From positions 3,410,001-3,474,000 of the forward strand of contig NZ_BDCO01000002.1 of NCBI RefSeq assembly GCF_001613545.1: a DNA stretch of 64,000 bases. The letters run 5' to 3'. The notes under the pieces are model-generated. The model saw only the letters and a list, made by a program, of their open reading frames with translations. It searched no databases and was not told the DNA's origin. Numbering within the stretch: the stretch's first letter is position 1; the number at the start of each line of letters is the position of its first letter. Below are positions 5,497 through 50,272 of this stretch, one piece after another. The translations under genes were made by a program, and so were the position numbers. The DNA comes from Terrimicrobium sacchariphilum (GTDB lineage Bacteria > Verrucomicrobiota > Verrucomicrobiia > Chthoniobacterales > Terrimicrobiaceae).

Positions 5497-6244
5497 TACC
5501 GCCCTCGACTCCCTCCTCGCCCTCTCCCACAGCCTCGGTCGACCCGACCTGCAGCTGGCCATCCTGGGCGAAGGCAATACATCCACCCGGCTCGACGCCG
5601 ACACCTTCCTGGTGAAGGCGTCCGGCTCCAGCCTGTCGACGCTCACCCCCGACGGTGTGGTGCGGTGCTACTCGGCCCCGCTCCTCGCGCTGCTGGATGC
5701 GAAGAACCTCTCCGATACGGACGTGGACAACGCCCTGCTCGAGTCGCGTGTCGACAAGAACGCGCGCAAGCCCTCCGTGGAGGCGCTCTTTCACGCCTAC
5801 CTGCTGTCGCTTCCGGGTATCAACTTCGTCGGCCACACGCACCCGATCACGGCCAATGCCTTCCTGTGCTCCGACCGGGCGCGGGAGTTTGCCAGCACGC
5901 GGCTCTTTCCCGACGAGATCGTTTGCTGCGGGCGCGTCTCGGCCTTCGTGCCGTACACCGACCCGGGGCTCGTGCTCTCACAGGCTATCCGCAAGGAGGT
6001 CGAAAGCTTCCGGAAGGATGAGGGGGAACTACCCCGCGTCATCCTGCTGCAGAATCACGGCGTCATCACCCTGGGCGGATCGCCCCAGGCCGTGGAGGCC
6101 GCCATGTTCATGTGCGAAAAGGCCGCACGTATCCGAGTGGGAGCCGCTGCCGTGGGAGATGTCGTGACGCTCACGGAACAAGAGGTCAATCGCATCGCGC
6201 ATCGCCCCGATGAACATCATCGTCGCAAGGCGCTGAATATCTGA
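5489..6244 (+). CDS. Class II aldolase/adducin family protein, probable L-fuculose phosphate aldolase
   Basis: This 251-residue protein has the class II aldolase pattern: GEGNTSTR near residue 28, E98 in [10 protein letters not shown]116 and H118 in GHTHPI, and H190 in QNHGVI. In FucA-type enzymes the three His bind Zn2+ and the Glu is catalytic. The open frame extends upstream to 5318 inside fucI, but the ATG at 5489, overlapping the fucI stop by 8 bases, gives the expected N-terminus [12 protein letters not shown]. With fucI upstream, cleavage of L-fuculose 1-phosphate to dihydroxyacetone phosphate and L-lactaldehyde is the likely reaction. A rhamnulose phosphate aldolase-like or epimerase role cannot be excluded from sequence alone. 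Confidence 0.85.
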
Positions 6245-6267
6245 CTTTGCGCCCGCGAGTCGCAGAG

Positions 6268-6290
6268 AGGGTGGGCCGAGCGCCCACCCT
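6268..6290 (+). terminator. Inverted repeat, probable terminator of the fucI-aldolase operon
   Basis: A perfect 9-bp stem AGGGTGGGC / GCCCACCCT with a 5-base loop begins 23 bases after the aldolase stop. There is no T-run after it, so a classical intrinsic terminator is not proven; it could also serve the convergent infA gene or act as an mRNA 3' end stabiliser. Confidence 0.5.
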
Positions 6291-6403
6291 TACGCGACAT
6301 TCGAAAGTCCGCTGCGAGATACAAACACACTCTCGCCGCCAAGGAAGGGGAACCACGTTCCCCGGAGATGGCCGGAAAACAAACCCGGCCGAAAAAGAAA
6401 AAA

Positions 6404-6622
6404 CTAGCCGAGACGATACACGATCCGGGCCTTGCTCAGATCGTACGGGGACATTTCCAGCTTCACGCGGTCGCCATTGAGGAGACGGATGAAACGCTTG
6501 CGCATCTTGCCCGAGATGTGTGCCAGCACGGTGTGCTTGTTGGCCAATTCCACGTGAAACATCGTCCCGGGTAGTACGTTCGTTATCCGTCCTTCAACTT
6601 CGATCGCTTTGTCCTGTTGCAT
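6404..6622 (-). CDS. infA: Translation initiation factor IF-1
   Basis: The protein starting at ATG 6622 is 72 residues, the normal IF-1 length, and consists of one S1/OB-fold RNA-binding domain: [39 protein letters not shown] and [18 protein letters not shown]-1 binds the A site of the 30S subunit during initiation. The longer open frame from 6637 would add MRYIS, which is not expected. It stands alone here instead of in the ribosomal-protein operon. In some bacteria extra infA copies exist, so a second copy elsewhere is possible. A GC-rich inverted repeat lies just downstream at 6370-6390, but its T-rich side is on the wrong flank for a minus-strand terminator. Confidence 0.96.
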
Positions 6623-6812
6623 AGAGATATACCGCACGGCGAAGAACGCATTCAGGCGACGCAGAATGACCTGCTAGATCGACAGAACAACGGGCAGATG
6701 AGTGTTGTTGCCAAAAATCCGCTGTGGAAACTTTCCACGCTACCAACGGAATCTCCCCCGTGCGAACGCACAGCATCCCCCCGATTGTCCGGGAATGCAA
6801 ACGGAAATGCCC

Positions 6813-7481
6813 CTAGATCGTGGGATTGTGGTCGCTATGGACCGGATACACCCGGATCCCGTTGATAAAGGTCGTGGTGAAGTCTTTGGCCAGTTCGTCG
6901 TAGGGGCGGAGGAAATCCGGGTCCTGAAACAGCTCAATGCTCAGCGCCGCGCTACGCAACATGCCGAGAAACGCTTGAGCGCTCATGCGTGGATTGCTCG
7001 CATGAATCAGACCTGCGGCCATCCAGCGAATGAACATTCCCTCCAGCACTGCGACAAACCGTGTGACAAACTGCTCGTAAAACTCCCCTGCCAGTTCATG
7101 CCCCTCCAGGGCACTCTGGTAATAAAGCCTGAGAAAGGTCGGGTCGTGGGCCTCGAGAAATCTTTGAGCCACGCCTTGGAGCACGATTTCCACGGGGAGG
7201 TCGATCGACTCCGGTGCCTGAAAAAGCTCCAGCGAGACCTCCTCCTCGAGCTTGGCTCGCAGGATGGCGGTGTGCAGGTCGCGCTTGGCCGGGAAATGCC
7301 GATAGATCAACGCCTCATTGACTCCGGCGCGACGGGCAATCTCCGCAGTCGTAGTTCCTTTAAATCCCTTGCTGGCAAATAGTTCCTTCGCTGCGCCCAA
7401 AATGCGATCACGCGTACGAAGCAGCGGATGGGGAGGATTGTTAAGCACGCTCTCCATCACGAGCATAACCTCGGTATGCAC
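6813..7481 (-). CDS. TetR-family transcriptional regulator
   Basis: The N-terminus holds the TetR DNA-binding domain: TRDRILGAAKELFASKGFKG followed by TTTAEIARRAGVNEALIYRH and FPAKRDLHTAIL. The remaining ~140 residues form an alpha-helical ligand-binding/dimer domain that I cannot assign to a subfamily. The frame begins with GTG at 7481; in-frame ATGs at 7466 and 7457 are credible alternatives because the HTH does not begin before residue 23. Neighbours are infA and the suf genes, neither an obvious target. TetR proteins often control a nearby efflux or metabolic gene, but none is adjacent here. About 295 bp upstream, to the end of sufU, show no gene. Confidence 0.9.
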   Translation of the reverse strand: MHTEVMLVMESVLNNPPHPLLRTRDRILGAAKELFASKGFKGTTTAEIARRAGVNEALIYRHFPAKRDLHTAILRAKLEEEVSLELFQAPESIDLPVEIVLQGVAQRFLEAHDPTFLRLYYQSALEGHELAGEFYEQFVTRFVAVLEGMFIRWMAAGLIHASNPRMSAQAFLGMLRSAALSIELFQDPDFLRPYDELAKDFTTTFINGIRVYPVHSDHNPTI

Positions 7482-7776
7482 ATTTCTACCCGCCGGAAAA
7501 TAAGGGACTTTCCTATCATGGGGCTTTAGGGGGATACGACATCACAAAGCCTCAAAGCACGAGTCATCGCTCGTCGTCCCTTCTTTCCCTGGGTGATCTT
7601 CATGCTTTTTGAGACCTGTTGCCTGACTGCACTAACAGATCATACGTAGAGACGTCGAGACTGGAGAAAGGCTCCATTTCAGCGCCCGGCCTGACGGGGC
7701 CGGACACGCCAATCTCCAGGCTGCCTCCCCATTCTCCTTACGTACCACCACCCACCGGAGGGCGGCGTCCAGCCTG

Positions 7777-8235
7777 CTAGCTGGCTGGTTCCTCGGTCGT
7801 AACCGATCCCGCATGGGCTTCCAGTGCCTGCTCGAGCGCACGCCACGAAAGGGTGGCGCACTTCACCCGCTGGGGGAAACGCCGCACGGCGGAAAAAATC
7901 TGCAAGTCGCCCAGCGTGTCGTTCGACTCCGGAGCCTCGGGCGCGGTGAGCATGTCCTTGAATCCCTTGAGCAGCGCCTCGGCCTGCGCCTTTTCCTTTT
8001 TCTTCACCTTCAGCGTGAGGAGCGAGGCGGAGGCCATGCAGATGGCGCAGCCCTGGCCGGTGAATTTCACGTCCTCGATCTGGTCGCCGTTGAGCTTGAG
8101 CGAAAGCTCGATCTCGTCGCCGCACGAGGGATTGTCCCCGCGCACGGTCACCGTCGCATCGGGCAGTGGGCCGAAGTTCCGGGGACGCTTGCTGTGGTCC
8201 AGGATCACCTCCTGGTAGAGTTCTTCGAGGTTCAT
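7777..8235 (-). CDS. sufU: SufU-type iron-sulfur cluster assembly / sulfur-transfer protein
   Basis: The 152-residue protein has the SufU pattern: C38 with D40 (NPSCGDEIEL), C63 and C66 (GQGCAICMASASLL) and C126 (VKCATLSW). The insertion between the second and third Cys distinguishes SufU from NifU/IscU. SufU binds Zn and receives persulfide from SufS for Fe-S cluster building. Its ATG overlaps the stop of sufS by 4 bases, so the two are translated together. The other suf genes (sufB, sufC, sufD) are not in the window. Confidence 0.95.
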   Translation of the reverse strand: MNLEELYQEVILDHSKRPRNFGPLPDATVTVRGDNPSCGDEIELSLKLNGDQIEDVKFTGQGCAICMASASLLTLKVKKKEKAQAEALLKGFKDMLTAPEAPESNDTLGDLQIFSAVRRFPQRVKCATLSWRALEQALEAHAGSVTTEEPAS

Positions 8236-9455
8236 GCGAAAAAGGTCTGCACTTTCTTGAGGATTTCCCCCATCCGTTGAATCTCCTCAATCGTGTTGTA
8301 AAAGGCAAAGCTTGCCCGGCTGGAGGCGGGCACGCCGAGCTTGCGCAGTAGCGGCTGGGTACAGTGGTGGCCGCCGCGCAAGGCGAGTCCCTCCTGGTCC
8401 GCCATGCTCACGACATCGTGGGCGTGGGCCGACTGGAGGGTAAAAGCGACGAGTCCGGCCCGCTGGTCCAGCGGCCCAAGGATGCGGATGCCGGGGATCT
8501 GGCTCAATACCGCCAGTCCTTCCCGGGCGAGAAGCTGGTCGTGTTCCCAGATGCGAGCGCGGCCAATACCGTCGATGTACTCCGCCGCCGCCGCGAGGCC
8601 GATCGCCTCCGCGATGGCCGGGGTCCCCGCCTCGAAGCGGTAGGGCGACGGCTTGTATTGGCTTCCCTCAAAGGTGACAGTGGAAATCATCTCGCCGCCG
8701 CCATGGAAGGGCGGCATCGCGTCGAGAATCTCCCGGCGGCCATACAGCAAGCCGATACCGGTCGGGCCGCACATCTTGTGCCCCGAGAGCGCGAGAAAGT
8801 CGCAGCCAAGCTCCTTCACGTCGAGCGGCAGATGCCCGGCACTCTGAGCGGCGTCGACGAGCACGGTGGCTCCGGCGGCCTTGGCCCGGCGCACGAGCTC
8901 GGCGGCGGGATTGATCGTGCCGAGGCTGTTCGAGATATGAACGAAGCTGAAGAGCTTCACCCCGTCGAGGAGCTGATCGAGATTGGAAAGGTCCAGCGTG
9001 CCCTCCGGCGTCACCGGGATGAAGCGCAGCTTCACGCCGCGCCGCTGGGCCAGGAGTTGCCACGGCACGATGTTGCTGTGGTGCTCCATCTCGGTCAGCA
9101 GGACCACATCGCCGGCCTTCAGGTATTCCTCGCCCCAGGCGCGAGCCACGAGGTTGATGCTCTCGGTGGTGCCGCGGGTGAAAATGATCTCCTCGTCCTG
9201 CGCGCCGAGGTAGGCGGCGAGGCGGGCGCGCGCGCCTTCATACCCGGCGGTGGCGCGATTACTCAGTTCATGCAGGCCGCGATGCACATTGGCATTGTCG
9301 TGCTCGTAGTAATGCGTCATCGCCTCGATCACGCTCAGCGGCTTCTGCGAAGTCGCCGCGTTGTCGAAATAAATGAGCTTCCTCCCGTTGACCTCCTGGT
9401 CCAACACGGGGAAGTCCTTGCGGATTTCCTCCCACGATCTTTCTCCTGCAGCCAT
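8232..9455 (-). CDS. sufS: Cysteine desulfurase SufS
   Basis: This 407-residue PLP enzyme takes sulfur from cysteine, giving alanine and an enzyme persulfide passed to SufU. K227 in LSGHKMCGPTGIG is the PLP Schiff-base lysine and C365 in RGGHHCTQPLL is the persulfide-carrying cysteine. LIYFDNAATSQKP near the N-terminus and the TEMEHHSNIVPWQ stretch are typical of group II (SufS) desulfurases. ATG 9455 gives MAAGERSWEEIRKDFP. It is the first gene of a sufS-sufU pair and is divergent from the STAS-MlaE-MlaF operon. Confidence 0.96.
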   Translation of the reverse strand: MAAGERSWEEIRKDFPVLDQEVNGRKLIYFDNAATSQKPLSVIEAMTHYYEHDNANVHRGLHELSNRATAGYEGARARLAAYLGAQDEEIIFTRGTTESINLVARAWGEEYLKAGDVVLLTEMEHHSNIVPWQLLAQRRGVKLRFIPVTPEGTLDLSNLDQLLDGVKLFSFVHISNSLGTINPAAELVRRAKAAGATVLVDAAQSAGHLPLDVKELGCDFLALSGHKMCGPTGIGLLYGRREILDAMPPFHGGGEMISTVTFEGSQYKPSPYRFEAGTPAIAEAIGLAAAAEYIDGIGRARIWEHDQLLAREGLAVLSQIPGIRILGPLDQRAGLVAFTLQSAHAHDVVSMADQEGLALRGGHHCTQPLLRKLGVPASSRASFAFYNTIEEIQRMGEILKKVQTFFA

Positions 9456-22727: not shown

Positions 22728-23528
22728 TCAGGCGCGCGCCATGCGGCGGCGATAGGCGGCAAAGACCAGCAATCCCCCTCCTGCAAGAAGCCCGAGCGTC
22801 GTCGGCTCCGGCACTGCTGTGGTGCTGAGATTGTCGATCGCAACGCCTCCACTCACCTGAAAGTAAATGTATGCCGTGCTGTCGCCAGCGATGGCGGGAT
22901 TGTTGAAAGTCTGGGAGGCACTCGCCAGCAGCGAGCCGACCGTGCCGTCCGATGAAGCGCTGTTGAGCGTCCCCGTTACTGAGAAATTGTTGGACCCGAG
23001 ATAAGAGACCGTAAGTTCGTAAAAGTACCAGTTTGTCGTCGTGGGCAAACCACCCGCTACCGGACTGACTTTCCATTCGGACTCACCTGATCCACTGTAG
23101 CTGGAAATGCCCATCTCGCCGCCATTCGCGCCCCCGCTCGTCACGTTGATGATCGGATAGTAAACACTGCCTCCATTGCCCGGCTGTCCATCCGTCAACA
23201 GCGGTACAGGCTCAGTTGTCACTCCCAGAGTCGGATTATTATTGGCATTTCCCTTGTAGTAAAAACTGACCTGCCAAGTATCGAGATTCCCCGAAAATGG
23301 CGTATTCAGGGTGAAAATTTGCCAAGGGCCATTCTCATAGTCCGTTGCCGAGATATCGAGGCAACCCGAGTTATTCAATCCACCCGTTCCGCTCTGGATC
23401 GTCAGCCCCGACTGCGCCGAGGAAAAATTTCCCGTCAGTTGTCCCGGCGTGTTGAAGTCGAAAAGCACCGCCCCATAAGACGCACCCACCACGGCAAATA
23501 TCCCCAAAACGGCAACAACAGACTTCAT
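22728..23528 (-). CDS. PEP-CTERM exported protein
   Basis: The 266-residue protein has a signal peptide (MKSVVAVLGIFAVVGASYGA) and a C-terminal PEP-CTERM tripartite signal: VPEPTTLGLLAGGGLLVFAA then YRRRMARA. The middle is Gly/Ser/Thr/Asn rich and beta-strand-like, with low Lys/Arg content. PEP-CTERM proteins are processed by exosortase (EpsH/XrtA type) and sent to the cell surface or exopolysaccharide. No exosortase gene is in the window. The region downstream to the OmpA gene has no gene. Confidence 0.92.
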   Translation of the reverse strand: MKSVVAVLGIFAVVGASYGAVLFDFNTPGQLTGNFSSAQSGLTIQSGTGGLNNSGCLDISATDYENGPWQIFTLNTPFSGNLDTWQVSFYYKGNANNNPTLGVTTEPVPLLTDGQPGNGGSVYYPIINVTSGGANGGEMGISSYSGSGESEWKVSPVAGGLPTTTNWYFYELTVSYLGSNNFSVTGTLNSASSDGTVGSLLASASQTFNNPAIAGDSTAYIYFQVSGGVAIDNLSTTAVPEPTTLGLLAGGGLLVFAAYRRRMARA

Positions 23529-23761
23529 GAGCGGGGCAGGGAATCTGAACTCTTTTCGGCCAGCAAGATTAAATCCTGCTCACAACATACATTGATACGC
23601 AGTCTCAATACGAAATTCGCAGTATATCCTTGACCCCCGCCTCACAACTTACCTTAACGCGCACGCGGCAAAGTCTATGACATGCCATCCGGCAGATGGA
23701 CAGGCTGGCCTCTTCCGCGCCGGAGACGGTCTTTATCCGAAAAAATGATCAGGCCTCCCGC

Positions 23762-29058: not shown

Positions 29059-30750
29059 CTAGCTCTGAGCCGCGTTGCGTCGGCGCATGGCCCACCCCGC
29101 CAAAGCCAATCCACCCAGTCCGAGAAGAACCATCGAGGAAGGCTCCGGCACAGCTCCAGCAGTGCCGAGGCTCCACTCCAGTGTGGCGTTTCCAAAAACG
29201 TCTCCACCATTGAGGGGGCCGGTCTGCATGCCAATAAAGGTATCGCTGCCGATCGAAGTCGAGCCCCAGAAATCCTGCGAGGGGAACAAATAGGCCGGAG
29301 TCTGCTCAGAGGCCTTGAGGAGCTCGAGGAAGTAAGGGTTCACCAACGTGCCATCTGCCGCCTGCTGTTCCATCCAGGCTACGAGGTCCGTGCCGGTCAG
29401 GTTTCCCGCACGACCGCCTGCGATCTGGGCGCCCGCAGTCAGGATCTCAAAGTTATAGTTATCCTGCCCTGCCACCCACGGCACATAACCCGCCCAAGTG
29501 GGGAGCTGGGCGTTGTTCACGAAATTGGGAGTAAAGACCACCCCCGATGCCACTGCGTTGTAAAGCGCGTACCAAAGGTTCGGCCCATTGGAACCCAGAT
29601 TGGTGACCCAGGCGGGAGTTGTCGTGAGCGCATTGGGCGATGACGTCCAGATACCGTTCAGCATTCCCTCGTTTTGGGAGATGCTGTAGGTGGCTCCCCC
29701 GGCATTGGTAACGGAGTTCCAAACCACGGAGTAGGAAGCTGTCGGGGACGGAGTACCTCCGTAAACCGTAAAGTCCGTCAGCGTCATTGTATAATTATTG
29801 TTGTTATCCTTGGAGAAGTTCACGTAGGCCGACCACATATTTCCGGAGGTCGTTCCGTCCGGCGACGTGATCTGCTGGGTGGAGGCCATGCGAAAACCTG
29901 CGCTTGTCCAGTTCGGCCCGGTGGCCGGAGAACCCGACACCCAGGCAGGCGCTGTCGACGATTTTGTGATCACCGAGTCCAGTGCTTCGGTAAAGCTCGT
30001 GATGGTCGAAGCGTCGATGTTTCCAGGGGCGGCCGAATTTTTGGTGATCCACCGTACGGGATTCGTAGCTCCCGGGTACGACATATTCTGGGAGAATCCG
30101 CCGTTCGAGGTCCCCAGCCAGGCATACCGCGACTGAGAGGCATAGCTGGCGATCTTACTGGCGACGGTGGCGGACGAAACACCGGTTTTCCCACCATAGG
30201 TCACCGTCGTCGGAGCAGGGCTCAGCGTTCCATTGGCCTGGACCTTCATCTGCGTGGAGAAATCCCAGCTATCGATCCAGCTGAGATCGAGAGTCCCCGG
30301 GTTACCGCCACTGAAGCTCCACTCAAAATAGTTGTTGGGAGACGTATTCAGAGAGCTGGAAGTCGGCGCGACTCCGCCCGGGCTGAGCACTGCGTACATG
30401 CGGGTACCGCCATCGGCAGCGTACAGACGCAACGCACCGTCCGTGATCGTGCTCAGCTGCACCGCCGTTCCATAGGTGCCTGCGCTCGAGTTCCCAGTGA
30501 CGTAACTTGAGCCAGATTTGTAGTCGAACTGGAAATTGGAGAGCAGCCAGATATCAGACGTCTGAACATTGGCTCCATAATACTCGCCCGGCCCAAAGTT
30601 ATTCGTGACCGTCAGGTCGTAGTAGGACTGAGCGAAAGCACCCGACCCAGCCAGCAATGCCGCAGCCGCGACTGCATAGGACCATTTGGTTCGGCGGTTG
30701 CCTGCGCGAGCGATAGGCTGGTTCACTTGAGTTGAGCGACAAACATGCAT
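29059..30750 (-). CDS. Large PEP-CTERM exported protein
   Basis: From ATG 30750, spaced six bases from AGGGAG on the reverse strand, the product is 563 residues. A hydrophobic signal region (SYAVAAAALLAGSGAFAQ) follows a basic N-terminus (ARAGNRRTKW). The long middle is Asn/Ser/Thr/Gly rich, aromatic and beta-strand-like with few charges. It ends AGAVPEPSSMVLLGLGGLAL followed by AGWAMRRRNAAQS, the PEP-CTERM signal. It is probably a surface or extracellular structural/adhesive protein processed by an exosortase. The longest open frame starts further upstream at 30825 but lacks an RBS there. It is located between an intact flavoprotein gene and a partial copy of it. Confidence 0.92.
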   Translation of the reverse strand: MHVCRSTQVNQPIARAGNRRTKWSYAVAAAALLAGSGAFAQSYYDLTVTNNFGPGEYYGANVQTSDIWLLSNFQFDYKSGSSYVTGNSSAGTYGTAVQLSTITDGALRLYAADGGTRMYAVLSPGGVAPTSSSLNTSPNNYFEWSFSGGNPGTLDLSWIDSWDFSTQMKVQANGTLSPAPTTVTYGGKTGVSSATVASKIASYASQSRYAWLGTSNGGFSQNMSYPGATNPVRWITKNSAAPGNIDASTITSFTEALDSVITKSSTAPAWVSGSPATGPNWTSAGFRMASTQQITSPDGTTSGNMWSAYVNFSKDNNNNYTMTLTDFTVYGGTPSPTASYSVVWNSVTNAGGATYSISQNEGMLNGIWTSSPNALTTTPAWVTNLGSNGPNLWYALYNAVASGVVFTPNFVNNAQLPTWAGYVPWVAGQDNYNFEILTAGAQIAGGRAGNLTGTDLVAWMEQQAADGTLVNPYFLELLKASEQTPAYLFPSQDFWGSTSIGSDTFIGMQTGPLNGGDVFGNATLEWSLGTAGAVPEPSSMVLLGLGGLALAGWAMRRRNAAQS

Positions 30751-30849
30751 TTTCATCTCCCTATTTGCCCATTGAAAGCTTGGCAAGGAACAAATGCTCA
30801 CAAAACCGACTTCTCGCGGACCCAAAAATTACCTAACAACATTTACCAT

Positions 30850-44535: not shown

Positions 44536-44891
44536 GAAAATGACCGCGATCAGAGCGGACTTTCCGTATCGGATCGTCTTCCCCGCAAGGCAGGAGTTTC
44601 GGCCCGGAAAGTTGTCGCTGTACACCCAGACCTCTGAACCGAGGGCTGAATACCGGCCATCCCCATGAAATCTCTCTCCACGCTCCTAGCTCGATAGAAA
44701 TCGGAGAGATATCGTTGTCAGCAGTCAAGATTCTCTCTTGACACCAGGGAATTTCATTAGCTATCGCTTATAGCACATTTTGAGCTACAAGCGCATCCCC
44801 CAGCGATGAATTCCGATGGACAGTGATTTTTGGAAGGCATCTCCCGAGCGCACAATCAAGTCCCCCGCCCACTCCAGCCTGAACTGACATT
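44536..44891. other. 356-bp intergenic region before the tandem secreted genes
   Basis: No gene seen. The 3' part is AT-rich relative to the window and holds a TTGACA at 44738-44743 that could be a -35 element, though no good -10 was found, and ATAGCACATTTTG at 44770-44782, a 13-mer that recurs at 45607-45619 before the second paralogue. Confidence 0.5.
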
Positions 44892-45566
44892 ATGAAGCTA
44901 CTTGTATTAGCCACGCAAATCAGCGTCACCACACTATTGGTATTGGGTGGTGTAGAGTCCACCCGGGCGGAGGCGATAGTCGCAGATACGTTTGCACTCA
45001 ATGCCTCAGGGCGAACTCCGGGGGCAGAACTGAATGGTTTGGCTGCGGAAACAGGATCCGATACATGGAACAGCAACGCGAGGTTTGGCCCGACGGGCGG
45101 CGTCACCGTGGGACAGTCTGGCGCGGATGCGTATGGATTAATTTCCCTTCCGGCGACCGAGACAACGCTCACGGTTGAAGCAGCCGTTGTCACAGCGACC
45201 TCGGGCTGGGTTTCGGTCGGCTTTCAAAAAAACAGCTCCAAATCAAACTGGTACGATCCCGCCAACAGCCTTCTGTTTGCATTGCTGGAACCCAATGGAA
45301 GGTGGCAACTCAAAAGCTCGGGAGCCACTCTGCTGGCTTCCGGGACATTGACGGATTTCGAGCCCGGCAACGTGTATAAACTGGAACTCAGATACAATCC
45401 CGCGTCCGGCACGGCCAGCGTGTTCATCAACGATATCAATGTCTCCGGCGAACGGGCGGCGCAATTGACCGATCTCATCGGATCGGCCGGATTCTTCTTC
45501 TACGGAAACGGCGCCGCCACGACCGCCGCTTCATTACGAGATTTCTCCGTCAGCTCCCTGCCTTGA
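44892..45566 (+). CDS. Secreted LamG-like protein, paralogue without PEP-CTERM
   Basis: The 224-residue protein has a signal peptide (TTLLVLGGVESTRAEA region) and a beta-sandwich-like body: LNGLAAETGSDTWNSNARFG, TSGWVSVGFQ, NSLLFALLEPNGRWQLKSSG and FINDINVSGERAAQL. It aligns end to end with the next gene with essentially no gaps, about half of residues identical by eye. It stops with FSVSSLP exactly where its paralogue continues into a PEP-CTERM tail, so it should be released, not anchored. A concanavalin-like/LamG fold is suggested by the strand pattern, not proved. Binding of a carbohydrate is a possibility. Confidence 0.8.
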   Translation: MKLLVLATQISVTTLLVLGGVESTRAEAIVADTFALNASGRTPGAELNGLAAETGSDTWNSNARFGPTGGVTVGQSGADAYGLISLPATETTLTVEAAVVTATSGWVSVGFQKNSSKSNWYDPANSLLFALLEPNGRWQLKSSGATLLASGTLTDFEPGNVYKLELRYNPASGTASVFINDINVSGERAAQLTDLIGSAGFFFYGNGAATTAASLRDFSVSSLP

Positions 45567-45670
45567 TCTTTTCTCGCTGCATCCAAAAAAAACACGCCCT
45601 TATTAAATAGCACATTTTGTGATATTTTAAATTATTGCAGACAAACCGAAAACCAAGACCACGAAAACCA

Positions 45671-46420
45671 ATGAAAACCCACCCCCGAATTGTACGAACA
45701 GGAGTTTCGATGTTGCTGATACTTTGCAGTATCGGACTAATGCATGCCCAAACGCTGATATCGGACTCGTTTGATCTGAATGGAACGACCCGAACAGCAG
45801 GTGGAAACCTGAATGGACTGCCTCCCGAGGTTGGCTCCGGCACATGGTACAGCAACGCAAAGTTTGGAGCCGATGGAGGGGCGACCGTCGCAAACACTGG
45901 GGTTGATTCCTTCGGGTTGATTTCCTTCACCAATCCGGGGACCACGCTGACGGCACAAGCAAGCGTGATCACGGTGACGTCGGGCTGGATATCTGTCGGC
46001 TTCCAACACAGCAGCACAAACTCGAACTGGTTTGATTCCTCGAATAGCCTTCTCTTCGGTCTCCTGACTCCTACCGGCGGATGGCAGTTGAAAAACGGGG
46101 CGACGCTTGTCGCATCGGGAACGTTGTCCAACTTTACCAGCACAAATCCCTACACTCTTGAGCTGGTATACAATCCTACGACGGCCATCGCCGGCTTGCT
46201 CATCAACGGTATCAATGTGTCGGGAAACCGGTCCGTGACGTTATCGAAATCGATAGGTTCCTCCGGATTCTTCATCTATGGGAACGGCTCCGCCACGACC
46301 AGCGCTCTGGCCACGGATTTCTCCGTTGTCGCCGTGCCCGAACCTTCTCCGAAGCTCCTCGTTATGATGGGTCTGCTATTGGGAATGCTCATTTTGCGGA
46401 GAGGCAGCTTCCGGAGCTAG
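45671..46420 (+). CDS. PEP-CTERM exported LamG-like protein, paralogue
   Basis: From ATG 45671 the 249-residue product has a signal peptide (TGVSMLLILCSIGLMHAQ) and the same body as its upstream neighbour: LNGLPPEVGSGTWYSNAKFG, TSGWISVGFQ, NSLLFGLLTPTGGWQLKN and LINGINVSGNRSVTL. It ends VPEPSPKLLVMMGLLLGMLI followed by LRRGSFRS, a PEP-CTERM sorting signal. An exosortase should cut it and attach it to the surface or exopolysaccharide. The two paralogues are a recent-looking tandem duplication in which one kept the anchor. Longest frame begins at 45635; the chosen ATG fits better. Confidence 0.88.
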   Translation: MKTHPRIVRTGVSMLLILCSIGLMHAQTLISDSFDLNGTTRTAGGNLNGLPPEVGSGTWYSNAKFGADGGATVANTGVDSFGLISFTNPGTTLTAQASVITVTSGWISVGFQHSSTNSNWFDSSNSLLFGLLTPTGGWQLKNGATLVASGTLSNFTSTNPYTLELVYNPTTAIAGLLINGINVSGNRSVTLSKSIGSSGFFIYGNGSATTSALATDFSVVAVPEPSPKLLVMMGLLLGMLILRRGSFRS

Positions 46421-46514: not shown

Positions 46515-48338
46515 ATGAAGAGGAGATTTGCCGCGGCATGCCTGTCGCCAGTGCTATTACTCGTCCTGTCGGCGTGCGGAGATAAGCAAAATCCACGATT
46601 TCATGCTGCTGACCCCCAGATGAACGCCGTGGAGCTGCAGTCCTACATTTCCGAGGCCTATCGGGCGGGGCAGAAGCGAGTCGTAATTCCGCGTGGCGAG
46701 TACAGGCTGGCCAAACTTCCTGATGATGAAGCGTGTCTCTTCTTTAGGGGACTCGAGGACTTCGAGATCGACGCCACGAATGTGACGTTCCTCATTTGCG
46801 GAAAGGCTCAGAGCATCCGGCTGGAGCGGTGCCGGAATGTTACCTTGAAAGGTGGAGTATTTCGGCATGAGATCCCCCCTTTTTCCCAAGGTCGCATCGA
46901 GCATGTTGATCAGGGGCGCAGGTGGTTTGATGTGAGAATTGACACGGGCTACCTGCAGGACATCGATAACCCGCAGTATTTTTTCCGTCCGGGAACGCCT
47001 AAATTTGTCAACATATTCGACCCAAATACCCGTGAACTAAAGCCCGGCCTGGATGATTTGTTCTTCTCCGAGGTGCAGAGAATCAAGGCCGGGTGGTTCC
47101 GGTTCGTTTTCGCAAAGCCTCTGGCCCAGAGATTCCAGATTAAGGAGGGGGATCTAGCCAGCTGGCGGGGAGTCGTGGCGCCGGATCTGTTCCTTATCGA
47201 GTGCGAGGGATTGCAGGTAACTGACATGGTGATCCAGAGCGGATCGGGCTTTGTGATCTATGAAGCCGGAGGCAATGGCGGCAATGTTTACCGCCGATGC
47301 CGCATCGAGCGCGGACCCGCCCCCAAAGGCGGCACGGAACGTCCGCTTTTTTCCGCAAATGCCGATGGATTTCACAGCGTCAGCGTGAGACGGGGACCCC
47401 AGCTGGTAGATTGCCGGTTCGAGCATATGAATGACGACTGCATAGCGATTCATGGGGTATCCTATCTGGTACTCGAGGCCGATGATAGGACACTGACCGT
47501 GGCGGCGGCTCCACAGTCGCATCCTTACTATAGCGAGGCGGGAGATACTCTGCGTATCTATGACGAGAATGGCGCTTCCGTGGATGAGTCAAAAATCATC
47601 TCCATCACCCCGTCGCCCGGCTACAAGATCACTCAGGATCTGAGTTCGTTCAGTCAATATGAGAACGAACGGAAGTCCGGCACACTCAAGGTATACACGG
47701 TGGTGCTGGACAAGGCTTGTCCAGCGCGTTTCCCGTGGTTTGCCGTAAATGCGGACACTCAGGGCAGCGGATTCGCCATTCGTAACTGCCGGGTAGGATT
47801 CAATCGCCCCAGAGGGATGCTGATTCAGGCCGGAGACGGGATCATCGAGGGCTGCACCGTGGAAGGCAGCGCGATCGGCGGGATCATCGTTGCTCCCGAC
47901 ATGCACTTCTGGGCCGAGGGAGATTATGCCCGCAACCTGATGATCCGGGACAACGTGCTGAGAAATGTGGGGATATGGACGCAGATCGGAGCTGTCAATA
48001 TCAGTTGCTGGTGGGGTCGCGGATATGATCGTTTCACGCCGGCCGGAGGCCATCAGAATGTCACCGTCTCCGGAAACATCTTTGAGAACAATGACGGTCT
48101 GAACGTATTGGTGTCATCCGCCACAAATGTTTCGATCACAAACAACCGATTTATCTCCCCAGGAAAAAACCTTGAACCCTACCCTTTCAATGCCCCGGAA
48201 GGAGCCCTGGGATGGATCGTAAATAGCCGCAATATTACAGTGGAAGGCAATGCAATCATCAATCCGGGGGCGTACCTGAAGTCCGAGTTCGTTTTCTCTC
48301 CGCCACCGGCCAATCCTCCCATGAACCATGAGCAATAG
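46515..48338 (+). CDS. Secreted lipoprotein with right-handed beta-helix, GH110-like
   Basis: The 607-residue protein has a lipobox (LSAC, C21), so it is anchored by lipid. It then has repeats of a parallel beta helix. MNDDCIAIHGVSYLVLE, FNRPRGMLIQAGDGIIEGCT and GGIIVAPDMHFWAEGDYARN resemble conserved spots of GH110 alpha-1,3-galactosidases (DDxxxxHG, NRxRG, WxExG). Activity on an alpha-galactoside or related glycan is inferred. Its last 11 bases overlap the start of the pseudopilin gene. A GntR/LacI-type regulator follows. Confidence 0.72.
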   Translation: MKRRFAAACLSPVLLLVLSACGDKQNPRFHAADPQMNAVELQSYISEAYRAGQKRVVIPRGEYRLAKLPDDEACLFFRGLEDFEIDATNVTFLICGKAQSIRLERCRNVTLKGGVFRHEIPPFSQGRIEHVDQGRRWFDVRIDTGYLQDIDNPQYFFRPGTPKFVNIFDPNTRELKPGLDDLFFSEVQRIKAGWFRFVFAKPLAQRFQIKEGDLASWRGVVAPDLFLIECEGLQVTDMVIQSGSGFVIYEAGGNGGNVYRRCRIERGPAPKGGTERPLFSANADGFHSVSVRRGPQLVDCRFEHMNDDCIAIHGVSYLVLEADDRTLTVAAAPQSHPYYSEAGDTLRIYDENGASVDESKIISITPSPGYKITQDLSSFSQYENERKSGTLKVYTVVLDKACPARFPWFAVNADTQGSGFAIRNCRVGFNRPRGMLIQAGDGIIEGCTVEGSAIGGIIVAPDMHFWAEGDYARNLMIRDNVLRNVGIWTQIGAVNISCWWGRGYDRFTPAGGHQNVTVSGNIFENNDGLNVLVSSATNVSITNNRFISPGKNLEPYPFNAPEGALGWIVNSRNITVEGNAIINPGAYLKSEFVFSPPPANPPMNHEQ

Positions 48339-49113
48339 AGCTGATATTGCCCCATCCATGCGGCTCTCCTCCGGGGCGTTTACCCTTGCGGAGTTGCTGG
48401 TCGTCATCGCTCTCGTCGGCGTGATTGCTTCCCTCCTGATATCAAGCCTGCAAAAGTACCGGAAGACTGCCAATGCCGCGCAATGCATCAACAACATGCG
48501 CACGATCGCGGGTGGCGTCATCATGTATACAGGGGACAATGAAGGACGGTTCCCTCCCTATATCACAGCCGCCAATGGTCAGCCCTGGAGCATGTATCGA
48601 TCCTGGGATTACGTCATCAAACCCTATCTGGAGATGGCCTCCGAGCGCCCGGGCAAGTTGTTCAAATGCCCATCGGACCCGCGACCATATATCGACGCCA
48701 ACGGAAACTACGCGCGGAGCTACTCGTTGAGCGCGTTTTACACCTCGACCAGCAGCTGGCCTCCTCCGGGCAGCGGCCTTATCTCCATCGACACCAGCGA
48801 GGGCGTGCCGACGCCGGTGCGCAGGATCGCACAAGTATCCCGGCCCACCAAATGCATCATGTTGTCAGAATGGTGCTCTGATCCCAACGGGCAGACTCTC
48901 GCCAATTACCAAAATCAACTGCCATACAGCGCCCTGACCAGCATCTGGATATGGAAGGGGCAGGAACCCGTTCTCTCAAACAAGAAGACCATCCATGACC
49001 CCATGATCAACTATGCTTTTGTCGACGGACACGTGGAAGCCTTGCGACTTTCCGATATCACGGATAATTTTTCTATATCGGGTAATACTCTGTGGACGGC
49101 GGTCACCCAGTAA
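48328..49113 (+). CDS. Pseudopilin-like protein with H-X9-DG motif
   Basis: The 261-residue protein has a prepilin N-terminus: SSGAFTLAELLVVIALVGVI, with AFTLAE instead of the usual GFTLxE. Near the C-terminus H and DG are separated by exactly nine residues (HDPMINYAFVDGHVEAL). The middle is a globular domain with CINNMRTIAGGVIMYTGDNE and CPSDPRPYIDANGNYARSYS, typical of the DUF1559-like pseudopilins expanded in Planctomycetes, Verrucomicrobia and Lentisphaerae. It may be part of a type II-like or pilus-like surface apparatus, perhaps for capturing glycans. It overlaps the lipoprotein gene and is therefore likely translated with it. Confidence 0.88.
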   Translation: MSNRADIAPSMRLSSGAFTLAELLVVIALVGVIASLLISSLQKYRKTANAAQCINNMRTIAGGVIMYTGDNEGRFPPYITAANGQPWSMYRSWDYVIKPYLEMASERPGKLFKCPSDPRPYIDANGNYARSYSLSAFYTSTSSWPPPGSGLISIDTSEGVPTPVRRIAQVSRPTKCIMLSEWCSDPNGQTLANYQNQLPYSALTSIWIWKGQEPVLSNKKTIHDPMINYAFVDGHVEALRLSDITDNFSISGNTLWTAVTQ

Positions 49114-49180: not shown

Positions 49181-50272
49181 ATGATGCAAACATGGCCCCA
49201 ACAGCCTCAGTATAAAAAGGTCGCGGAGGTTCTGCGAGAGCGAATCCTGCATGGGGATTACATAGTCAACGAGATCCCATCGCTGCGCAGACTCGCCTCC
49301 AAAATGGGCGTGAGCCATATCGTCGCACGCAAGGCGGTGGAGGCGCTCATCAAAGACGATCTGCTGGTCCAGTATCCGAATGGTCGACTGATGCCCAAGG
49401 TGCCTCGTCATCGGGCCGGACGCGAGGGGTTGCGCGTGGCTTTTCTCGCTCCGGCCTTTGATTCGCAATACATGTCCATGGTGCGACTCGGCGCCCAGAT
49501 CGTCGCTGCCGAAAGCAGCTCCTTATTGCGCCCGATGGATTATGTCCATTGGAATGATCTCGTCATTGAGGAAGCGCTGAACAGCTTCGATGGCGTCATT
49601 CTCCTGGCCTCGACGGAGGAAATCCCTCCCAATGTGCTGGACGCTTTATCCGAGGCGTCGACATGCTTGATGACCGTGGATTACGACCTGACGGCCAGGG
49701 GCATTCCGTGTCTTTCCCTGTTTCGCGCCTCAAATATCCGGCACCTTCTGGACCATCTACAGTCTCTCGGACATCATCATGTGGATTGCCTCAACACCCA
49801 GCCCATTTGCCAGGAAACGGCAGCCCGGATCGAGTTTTGGCGACAGGGGACGCAGGAGCGGAAAATGCAGGGCAGCCTGATCAACGATCCGGTTCGGTCC
49901 TATGAACGGCCCATCGTTCGCGCTTATGAGGTCGTAAGCCGGCGACTGGATAACGGTGAAACGTTCGGCACGGCCGTCTTCTGTCCCAATGAATCCACAG
50001 CCAATGGTGCGATGAGGGCATTCTCGGAACATGGGCTTGAGGTTGGCAGGGACATCTCAGTCTGCGCCGTAGGAGATTTCGGCGGAGCGAGATACTCAAC
50101 ACCATCTCTCACGTCTTTGCAGATGCCCGATGTTGCCGCGCTGCTGCGGCCCTGCTTCGAATGGATAAAGTCGAAAAAACAAAAATGGTCAGGCCCATTG
50201 CTGGTTAAACCGCAAGAAACCGTTCTCTTTATAGGGGAATCCACCGGCAAGGCGTTCAGCTCCGGCAATTGA
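49181..50272 (+). CDS. GntR-type HTH / LacI-type sensor regulator
   Basis: The 363-residue protein begins with a GntR winged helix: QQPQYKKVAEVLRERILHGD, IPSLRRLASKMGVSHIVARK and AVEALIKDDLLVQYPNGRLM. Then a LacI/PBP1-like effector domain follows (LRVAFLAPAFDSQYMSMVRL, DGVILLASTEEIPPNVLDAL, DISVCAVGDFGGARYSTPSL). This AraR-like architecture is common next to sugar-utilisation genes of Verrucomicrobia. It is the best candidate to control the beta-helix/pseudopilin genes upstream, though it could act on the minus-strand glycoside hydrolases. Ligand unknown. Confidence 0.9.
   Translation: MMQTWPQQPQYKKVAEVLRERILHGDYIVNEIPSLRRLASKMGVSHIVARKAVEALIKDDLLVQYPNGRLMPKVPRHRAGREGLRVAFLAPAFDSQYMSMVRLGAQIVAAESSSLLRPMDYVHWNDLVIEEALNSFDGVILLASTEEIPPNVLDALSEASTCLMTVDYDLTARGIPCLSLFRASNIRHLLDHLQSLGHHHVDCLNTQPICQETAARIEFWRQGTQERKMQGSLINDPVRSYERPIVRAYEVVSRRLDNGETFGTAVFCPNESTANGAMRAFSEHGLEVGRDISVCAVGDFGGARYSTPSLTSLQMPDVAALLRPCFEWIKSKKQKWSGPLLVKPQETVLFIGESTGKAFSSGN

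Follow-up and report, generated by a model that had tools for sequence, protein, structure and literature searches.

A tandem pair of secreted lectin-like proteins in Terrimicrobium sacchariphilum, one with and one without a PEP-CTERM tail, as one case of a recurring gene arrangement

Introduction

The closest described counterpart of the locus reported here is the PEP-CTERM/exosortase (EpsH) system. According to passages of Haft 2006 (PMC1569441), PEP-CTERM genes of Proteobacteria mostly form single-gene operons with a sigma-54-type upstream site, and homologous pairs with and without the tail were used to argue that the tail is a module; the PF07589 model of 2006 caught 22% of TIGR02595 instances. 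Tail modularity and the existence of tail-less homologues are therefore already known from these passages. Adjacent tailed and untailed pairs as a recurring format were not found among the titles and listings of the literature searched, nor in the same passages of PMC1569441.

Here, we describe such a pair in a window of 64,000 nucleotides (the whole stretch of DNA that was analysed) from Terrimicrobium sacchariphilum, where a sequence-only reading had drawn attention to two neighbouring paralogues. Beyond that reading, we find that the pair is old, that it is one of several in the genome, and that its gene cluster also encodes a GH110-like protein, a pseudopilin and a regulator. Most PEP-CTERM proteins have, to our knowledge, no known function and no known partner, and adjacent genes whose main difference is the tail offer natural experiments on exosortase sorting.

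Results

Two adjacent secreted proteins differ by a PEP-CTERM tail

The two genes, termed S and P, and the tail have the following coordinates in the window:

44892..45566, plus strand: S, secreted lectin-like domain protein without tail; 224 residues, signal peptide, TGA directly after ...SSLP
45671..46420, plus strand: P, same domain as S with a C-terminal PEP-CTERM tail; 249 residues, signal peptide
46337..46417, plus strand: PEP-CTERM tail of P; 27 residues with PEP motif, hydrophobic helix and RR basic end

The two secreted proteins had been said to align end to end almost without gaps, with S stopping exactly where P enters its tail, and both statements are borne out by BLASTP. S (44892-45563) and P (45671-46417) align from residue 1 through the final residue of S, with 119 of 224 residues identical (53%), one gap and an E value of 6e-81, and the final residue of S pairs with the first proline of the PEP motif in P. 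S ends in ...DFSVSSLP followed by the stop, and P runs on as ...DFSVVAVPEPSPKLLVMMGLLLGMLILRRGSFRS. A hydrophobic signal peptide is present in both proteins (the first 40 residues of P have a hydropathy of 2.11), and a hydrophobic C-terminal helix only in P; within the C-terminal 45 residues, hydropathy as a 15-residue mean peaks at 2.42 in P versus 1.11 in S. P is likely to start at ATG 45671, not at TTG 45635 of the mechanical ORF list, with a signal peptide that opens MKTHPRIVRTGVSMLLIL.

Residues 223-249 of P, PEPSPKLLVMMGLLLGMLILRRGSFRS, have the architecture of a PEP-CTERM tail, with the PEP motif, a hydrophobic helix and a basic cluster at the very C terminus. The tail scores 16.2 bits against PF07589, under the curated cut-off of 20.7, which is a detection limit rather than a definition of PEP-CTERM proteins, and NF038129 matches residues 206-244 (E 7.5e-5), under its own cut-off. 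The genome holds one exosortase gene (C2:146836-147621; PF09721, 153 bits), whose ORF carries CSGI, NLIR and HELAG, matching the Cys, Asn-x-x-Arg and His-x-x-x-Gly motifs given in passages of PMC1569441. The ORF after it may be read as EpsI-like. Besides that of P, 99 PEP-CTERM tails in the genome exceed the PF07589 cut-off. Elsewhere in the window, the minus-strand ORFs 29062-30828 and 22731-23579 also end in PEP-CTERM-like tails.

The shared domain looks lectin-like

Neither S nor P matches any Pfam model at E 1. The domain family is present in 11 of 387 genomes of the phylum and in 6 of 384 genomes of the class; in a different family within this class, it occurs in 3 of 12 genomes. No relatives were found in plasmids, and the genome contigs searched contained one relative. 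We collected 41 complete or nearly complete domain copies, leaving out L126, which is the same DNA as L039, and the partial copies at L106, L112 and L119. Eighteen are stand-alone and untailed (S), 12 bear a PEP-CTERM tail (P) and 11 are found within larger proteins (E). A scan of seven E proteins gave enzyme-type Pfam matches above the cut-off in two (GDSL lipase; DUF4838) and glycosidase matches below it in two. DUF4838 is linked to glycosidases.

A profile built from the 41 rows matches RanBP9/10 SPRY, legume lectins, a sialidase lectin domain and serum amyloid P (pentraxin) at E values from 0.015 to 0.55, alongside unrelated chains, and single members weakly match Laminin_G_3, sialidase N-terminal, galactocerebrosidase lectin and 3-keto-disaccharide hydrolase models, alongside unrelated models; none of the 41 exceeds the curated cut-off of a lectin family in Pfam. 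Structure prediction gave a pLDDT of 44.1 for the whole protein, and an all-beta model with a pLDDT of 49.7 and a pTM of 0.59 for the domain alone. Foldseek found no match to the domain model at E 0.001 or better. The model is thus of low confidence; the closest solved structure to it is the galactocerebrosidase lectin region (Z 10.8, 156 residues, 3.8 A), followed by CBM66 (Z 10.1, 135 residues, 3.1 A) and then galectins (Z 9-10). Because the profile matches and the model agree, a concanavalin-A-like lectin fold is favoured, short of proof, and the binding-like domain proposed from the sequence alone looks lectin-like from these weak profile and model matches. The family, for which Pfam has no entry, has so far been found in Verrucomicrobiota.

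The pair lies in a gene cluster and shares a palindrome

Flanking S and P in the window are the following features:

44770..44788, plus strand: operator-like palindrome 1, upstream of S, ATAGCACATTTTGAGCTAC; one change in the sister species
45607..45625, plus strand: operator-like palindrome 2, between S and P, ATAGCACATTTTGTGATAT; ~45 bases before the start of P
46515..48338, plus strand: GH110-like right-handed beta-helix lipoprotein; lipobox LSAC, Beta_helix over cut-off, PDB 7jw4 at E 1.4e-10
48328..49113, plus strand: pseudopilin-like protein of the DUF1559 family; prepilin cleavage motif, PF07596 and TIGR02532 over their cut-offs
49181..50272, plus strand: GntR-type regulator with a periplasmic-binding-protein-like (LacI-type) sensor domain; PF00392 at 31.4 bits and PF13377 at 48.3 bits, both over cut-off

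The S and P pair is kept in a same-genus relative, here called the sister species (G001; record JAFKMU010000042, a Verrucomicrobia metagenome assembly), in the same gene order, after a gene that we take from its sequence to be mnmG and ahead of the same three downstream genes. The pair is absent from one same-genus genome, G002.

The beta-helix protein aligns with 7jw4, a glycoside hydrolase of family 110, with ADGFH and NDDCIAIHG placed against ADATH and KDDATNIHG, in an alignment limited to residues 245-592 and of low identity. We take the aligned D and DD of these motifs to be the GH110 catalytic residues, and the lipoprotein is probably the cluster's glycan-active enzyme, as predicted from its sequence. 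The pseudopilin-like protein has an H-X9-DG-like end, with an H-X9-DG match under its cut-off.

Palindrome 2 is self-complementary at 14 of 19 positions and is invariant in the sister species amid otherwise diverged intergenic DNA. Palindrome 1 is a variant of it. Across the 4.75-Mb genome, the motif has three sites when up to two mismatches are allowed: two full-strength copies, both in the cluster, and a third site with 2 mismatches. At up to one mismatch, no site lies outside the cluster; a reversed-pattern control gave 0 sites genome-wide. This confinement to the S/P cluster speaks against a global site. No further copy lies near the GntR-type regulator. S and P are probably co-regulated, and the local regulator may bind both palindromes. 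As we read it, only the first half of the palindrome resembles the sigma-54 pattern that the passages of PMC1569441 give for PEP-CTERM genes of Proteobacteria.

Our favoured reading, with a probability of roughly 55%, is that the cluster serves carbohydrate use and maintains S and P as two secreted, probably co-regulated lectin-like proteins, P sorted and S free, with a glycan in common. Of this reading, we infer the fold, the sorting and surface display of P, the release of S, the ligand and the link between regulator and operator. The exosortase would cut P at the PEP motif and hand it over to be attached at the cell surface or to exopolysaccharide, and S, without a sorting signal, would remain unattached, either in the periplasm or, given export, outside the cell. 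The two would bind one and the same glycan; the sorted P would hold the polymer at the cell, and the free S would work on or carry what a fixed P cannot reach, next to the GH110-like lipoprotein. A sugar-sensing GntR-type regulator would switch both genes through the shared operator.

Alternatively, S might be a periplasmic binding protein for imported oligosaccharides while P acts outside, giving a two-stage capture and relay. By sequence and hydropathy, S has only a signal peptide, which alone delivers a protein to the periplasm; the organism is probably diderm, judging from its kin among the Verrucomicrobia, and the lipobox of the cluster's enzyme marks it as a lipoprotein. However, the pseudopilin of the cluster could belong to an export route, and no transporter was noticed among the five genes, and we regard such a relay as rather doubtful.

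Tailed and untailed copies of the domain parted repeatedly

A search for homologous pairs in related genomes, suggested by the sequence-only reading, returned three mixed loci in addition to the pair of the sister species. These loci (L055, L056 and L057) lie in G173, a genome of another family, each with at least one tailed and one untailed copy. The order at L055 is S, P, pseudopilin and glycosidase-like protein, beside a regulator that is presumably of LacI type from its sequence motif; at L057 it is P, pseudopilin, beta-helix protein and S. At a further locus (L125; G245:C39, 3564-4505 and 2-2926, minus strand), the domain occurs once with a tail and once in the adjacent DUF4838 protein; these two copies of the domain are 78% identical, and a recent duplication appears to have placed one domain in two delivery formats. 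Domain identity within the locus is 57% for S and P of the window and 38% at L057, and P of L055 is nearer by identity to P of the window than to its own S.

In a tree of the 41 domains, S and P of the window and of the sister species group together (support 99/96), as do S and P of L055 (100/86), S and P of L057 (99/99) and E and P of L125 (100/100); P and S stand apart at L056. The tree shows 11 changes of S, P or E label. A single ancient division between S and P lineages was rejected, with an AU value of 6e-41 for a clade uniting all P copies. Tree groupings and clade tests together indicate that tailed and untailed copies parted repeatedly. A single clade of the S copies of the window, sister species and L055, a group named after the tree was seen, was marginally rejected (p 0.039), so the window/sister and L055 loci could share one older duplication.

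A PEP-CTERM gene lies within 6 kb on the same strand at 13 of 14 independent S loci, the exception being L106, which is included in the 14 despite a doubtful frame that looks broken or fused. This count omits L112, where the C terminus is beyond the contig end, and the orthologues L039, L060, L107 and L111, and does not count the second S of L056 separately. Chance would give such a result with a probability of 2e-11 at the density of PF07589 tails (p 0.124), or of 5e-6 with a looser script test calibrated on the window (p 0.33). The PEP-CTERM neighbour contains the same domain at 4 of the 13 loci (the window, L055, L056 and L057); since no copy was detected in the other 9, a same-domain partner is not obligatory.

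Several loci show arrangements of their own. L124 (G527:C1:917001-935000, 5502-9133) departs from the mixed format, with three tailed copies that are 43-52% identical to each other and no untailed copy. L106 (G173:C36, 8025-8738) joins a GntR-like start to the second half of the lectin-like domain and is either a deletion fusion or a broken gene. At L061 in the same genome as the window (C2:780001-797000) and at L060 in G002, an untailed copy lies between an unrelated PEP-CTERM protein and a secreted protein of 781 residues, with a pseudopilin upstream; the domain is 93% identical between the two species.

Other domain families are paired in the same genome

To survey the genome, we compared 98 tailed ORFs from 83 stretches around tails, with the tail removed, against all ORFs there and in the window. 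This returned nine near matches (<8 kb), four of them to untailed ORFs, and a fifth untailed pair was added at L189, initially filtered out as its two frames overlap by 47 bases; a 125-residue fragment beside a tailed protein at L177 was not counted. The genome therefore has five loci that pair a PEP-CTERM protein with an untailed neighbour of the same domain. These are the window; L167, where a tailed Laminin_G_3 protein is followed by a Laminin_G_3-GH71 fusion; L199, where tailed and untailed copies of a different domain lie side by side; L203, where a tailed protein and a beta-helix protein have a common N-terminal domain; and L189, where a regulator, which we take from its motif to be LacI-type, is followed by a tailed and an untailed Laminin_G_3 protein.

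Five near pairs among 18 untailed relations would arise by chance with a probability of 2e-6 at one in 84 stretches, a rough figure because only stretches around tails supplied the untailed database, which under-samples distant untailed relatives. Among the distant untailed matches, 10 of 13 go to one frame of 958 residues (L162; G000:C2:252571-260571). This frame is similar to many PEP-CTERM proteins, is related to those of the beta-strand-repeat type, and has a PEP-CTERM match inside the frame, not at its end.

The L199 pair is conserved in G002, which holds a further tailed and untailed pair of this domain, with a pseudopilin (L223). Tailed copies of the two G002 loci are 51% identical, versus 29-31% to their own partners; as the tailed copies are closer to each other, the pair was inherited in this domain family, not remade at each locus. 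The window and L199 pairs are each followed by a beta-helix protein, and these two are 37% identical over 577 residues, so that one enzyme type goes with two domain families, each in a one-tailed, one-untailed format.

These comparisons also bear on the idea that S and P bind each other instead of a common glycan, an exosortase-attached P nucleating and free S adding on to build a protein layer or matrix at the cell surface. Copies of one locus are in several cases closer to each other than to those of other loci, as if fitted (the window, L057 and L125), and L199 and L189 use the same design with other domains. Yet identity within a locus also follows from plain duplication there, P of L055 is nearer to P of the window than to its own S, and lectin-type folds with glycosidase-like neighbours fit sugar binding alone; we consider self-assembly unlikely.

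S and P are maintained under purifying selection

In the sister species, S ends with TAA at the codon where S of the window has TGA, and the DNA past the stop has diverged. The S domain is 90% identical between the two. S and P have dN/dS values of 0.21 and 0.24, which point to purifying selection on both; the corresponding figures are 0.13 in the beta-helix neighbour and 0.12 in mnmG. In the tail of P, 23 of 27 residues are unchanged and none of the 4 changes falls in PEP or RR; its dN/dS of 0.48 is not clearly low and, on 27 codons, says little. Between S and P, dS is 2.0 in the window and 2.6 in the sister species, which argues that the duplication is old and has not been recently homogenised; recent gene conversion between S and P is unlikely on the same values.

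A tail hidden in another frame by sequencing error, which would have undone the contrast between S and P, was ruled out: no tail is encoded in any of the three frames past the S stop in the window or in the sister species, and the same stop position with a different stop codon and a low dN/dS likewise argues against such an error. It is very improbable that S arose from a P-type protein by loss of the tail and is now decaying by drift. A short terminal module is easily lost, and the 11 label changes show tail-less, tailed and fused copies to interchange often; but S ends at one codon position in both species, with TGA in one and TAA in the other, has a dN/dS of 0.21 and no frameshift, and 18 of the 41 family copies are stand-alone and tail-less.

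Discussion

The pair in the window is real and is one case of a recurring design. The proposal that a duplication made a soluble and a sorted version of one protein stands as far as the duplicated domain with and without a tail is concerned, in a genome with an exosortase and 99 other tails; the release of S and the surface location of P are what we infer from these signals. The recurrence suggests a division in such bacteria between a copy kept on the surface and a free one. Tentatively, carbohydrate clusters of these Verrucomicrobia may follow a general rule of matched-domain pairing, in which the lectin-like domain of a cluster is borne by an exosortase-sorted protein and also by a partner that is free or fused to an enzyme, the domain family being swapped from cluster to cluster while the format of one sorted and one free is kept. 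Pairs that recur with several lectin-like domains suggest a directly testable function, namely surface glycan capture beside free binding or cutting. Under such a pairing rule, the sorted copy would act at the surface as a docking site, either for the common ligand or for its twin; in Gram-negatives, this would loosely correspond to binding modules that occur both cell-bound and free.

Set against known systems, the closest likeness of P is to PEP-CTERM proteins of the exosortase (EpsH) system, as it has the PEP motif, hydrophobic helix, basic end and signal peptide, and the genome has an EpsH with the expected motifs. Unlike the genes described in the passages of PMC1569441, P is clustered with an untailed paralogue, an enzyme-like gene, a pseudopilin, a GntR regulator and a local palindrome. 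The neighbour at 46515-48338 resembles the GH110 alpha-1,3-galactosidases in its beta-helix and in an acidic motif region aligned with 7jw4, but the two align only over residues 245-592 and at low identity. The shared domain, finally, resembles the concanavalin-A-like lectin and CBM superfamily (Laminin_G_3, CBM66, and the sialidase and galactocerebrosidase lectin domains) in its low-confidence all-beta model, in its weak profile matches and in the placement of some copies in larger proteins, as binding modules are; it differs in that 0 of 41 members pass a curated cut-off.
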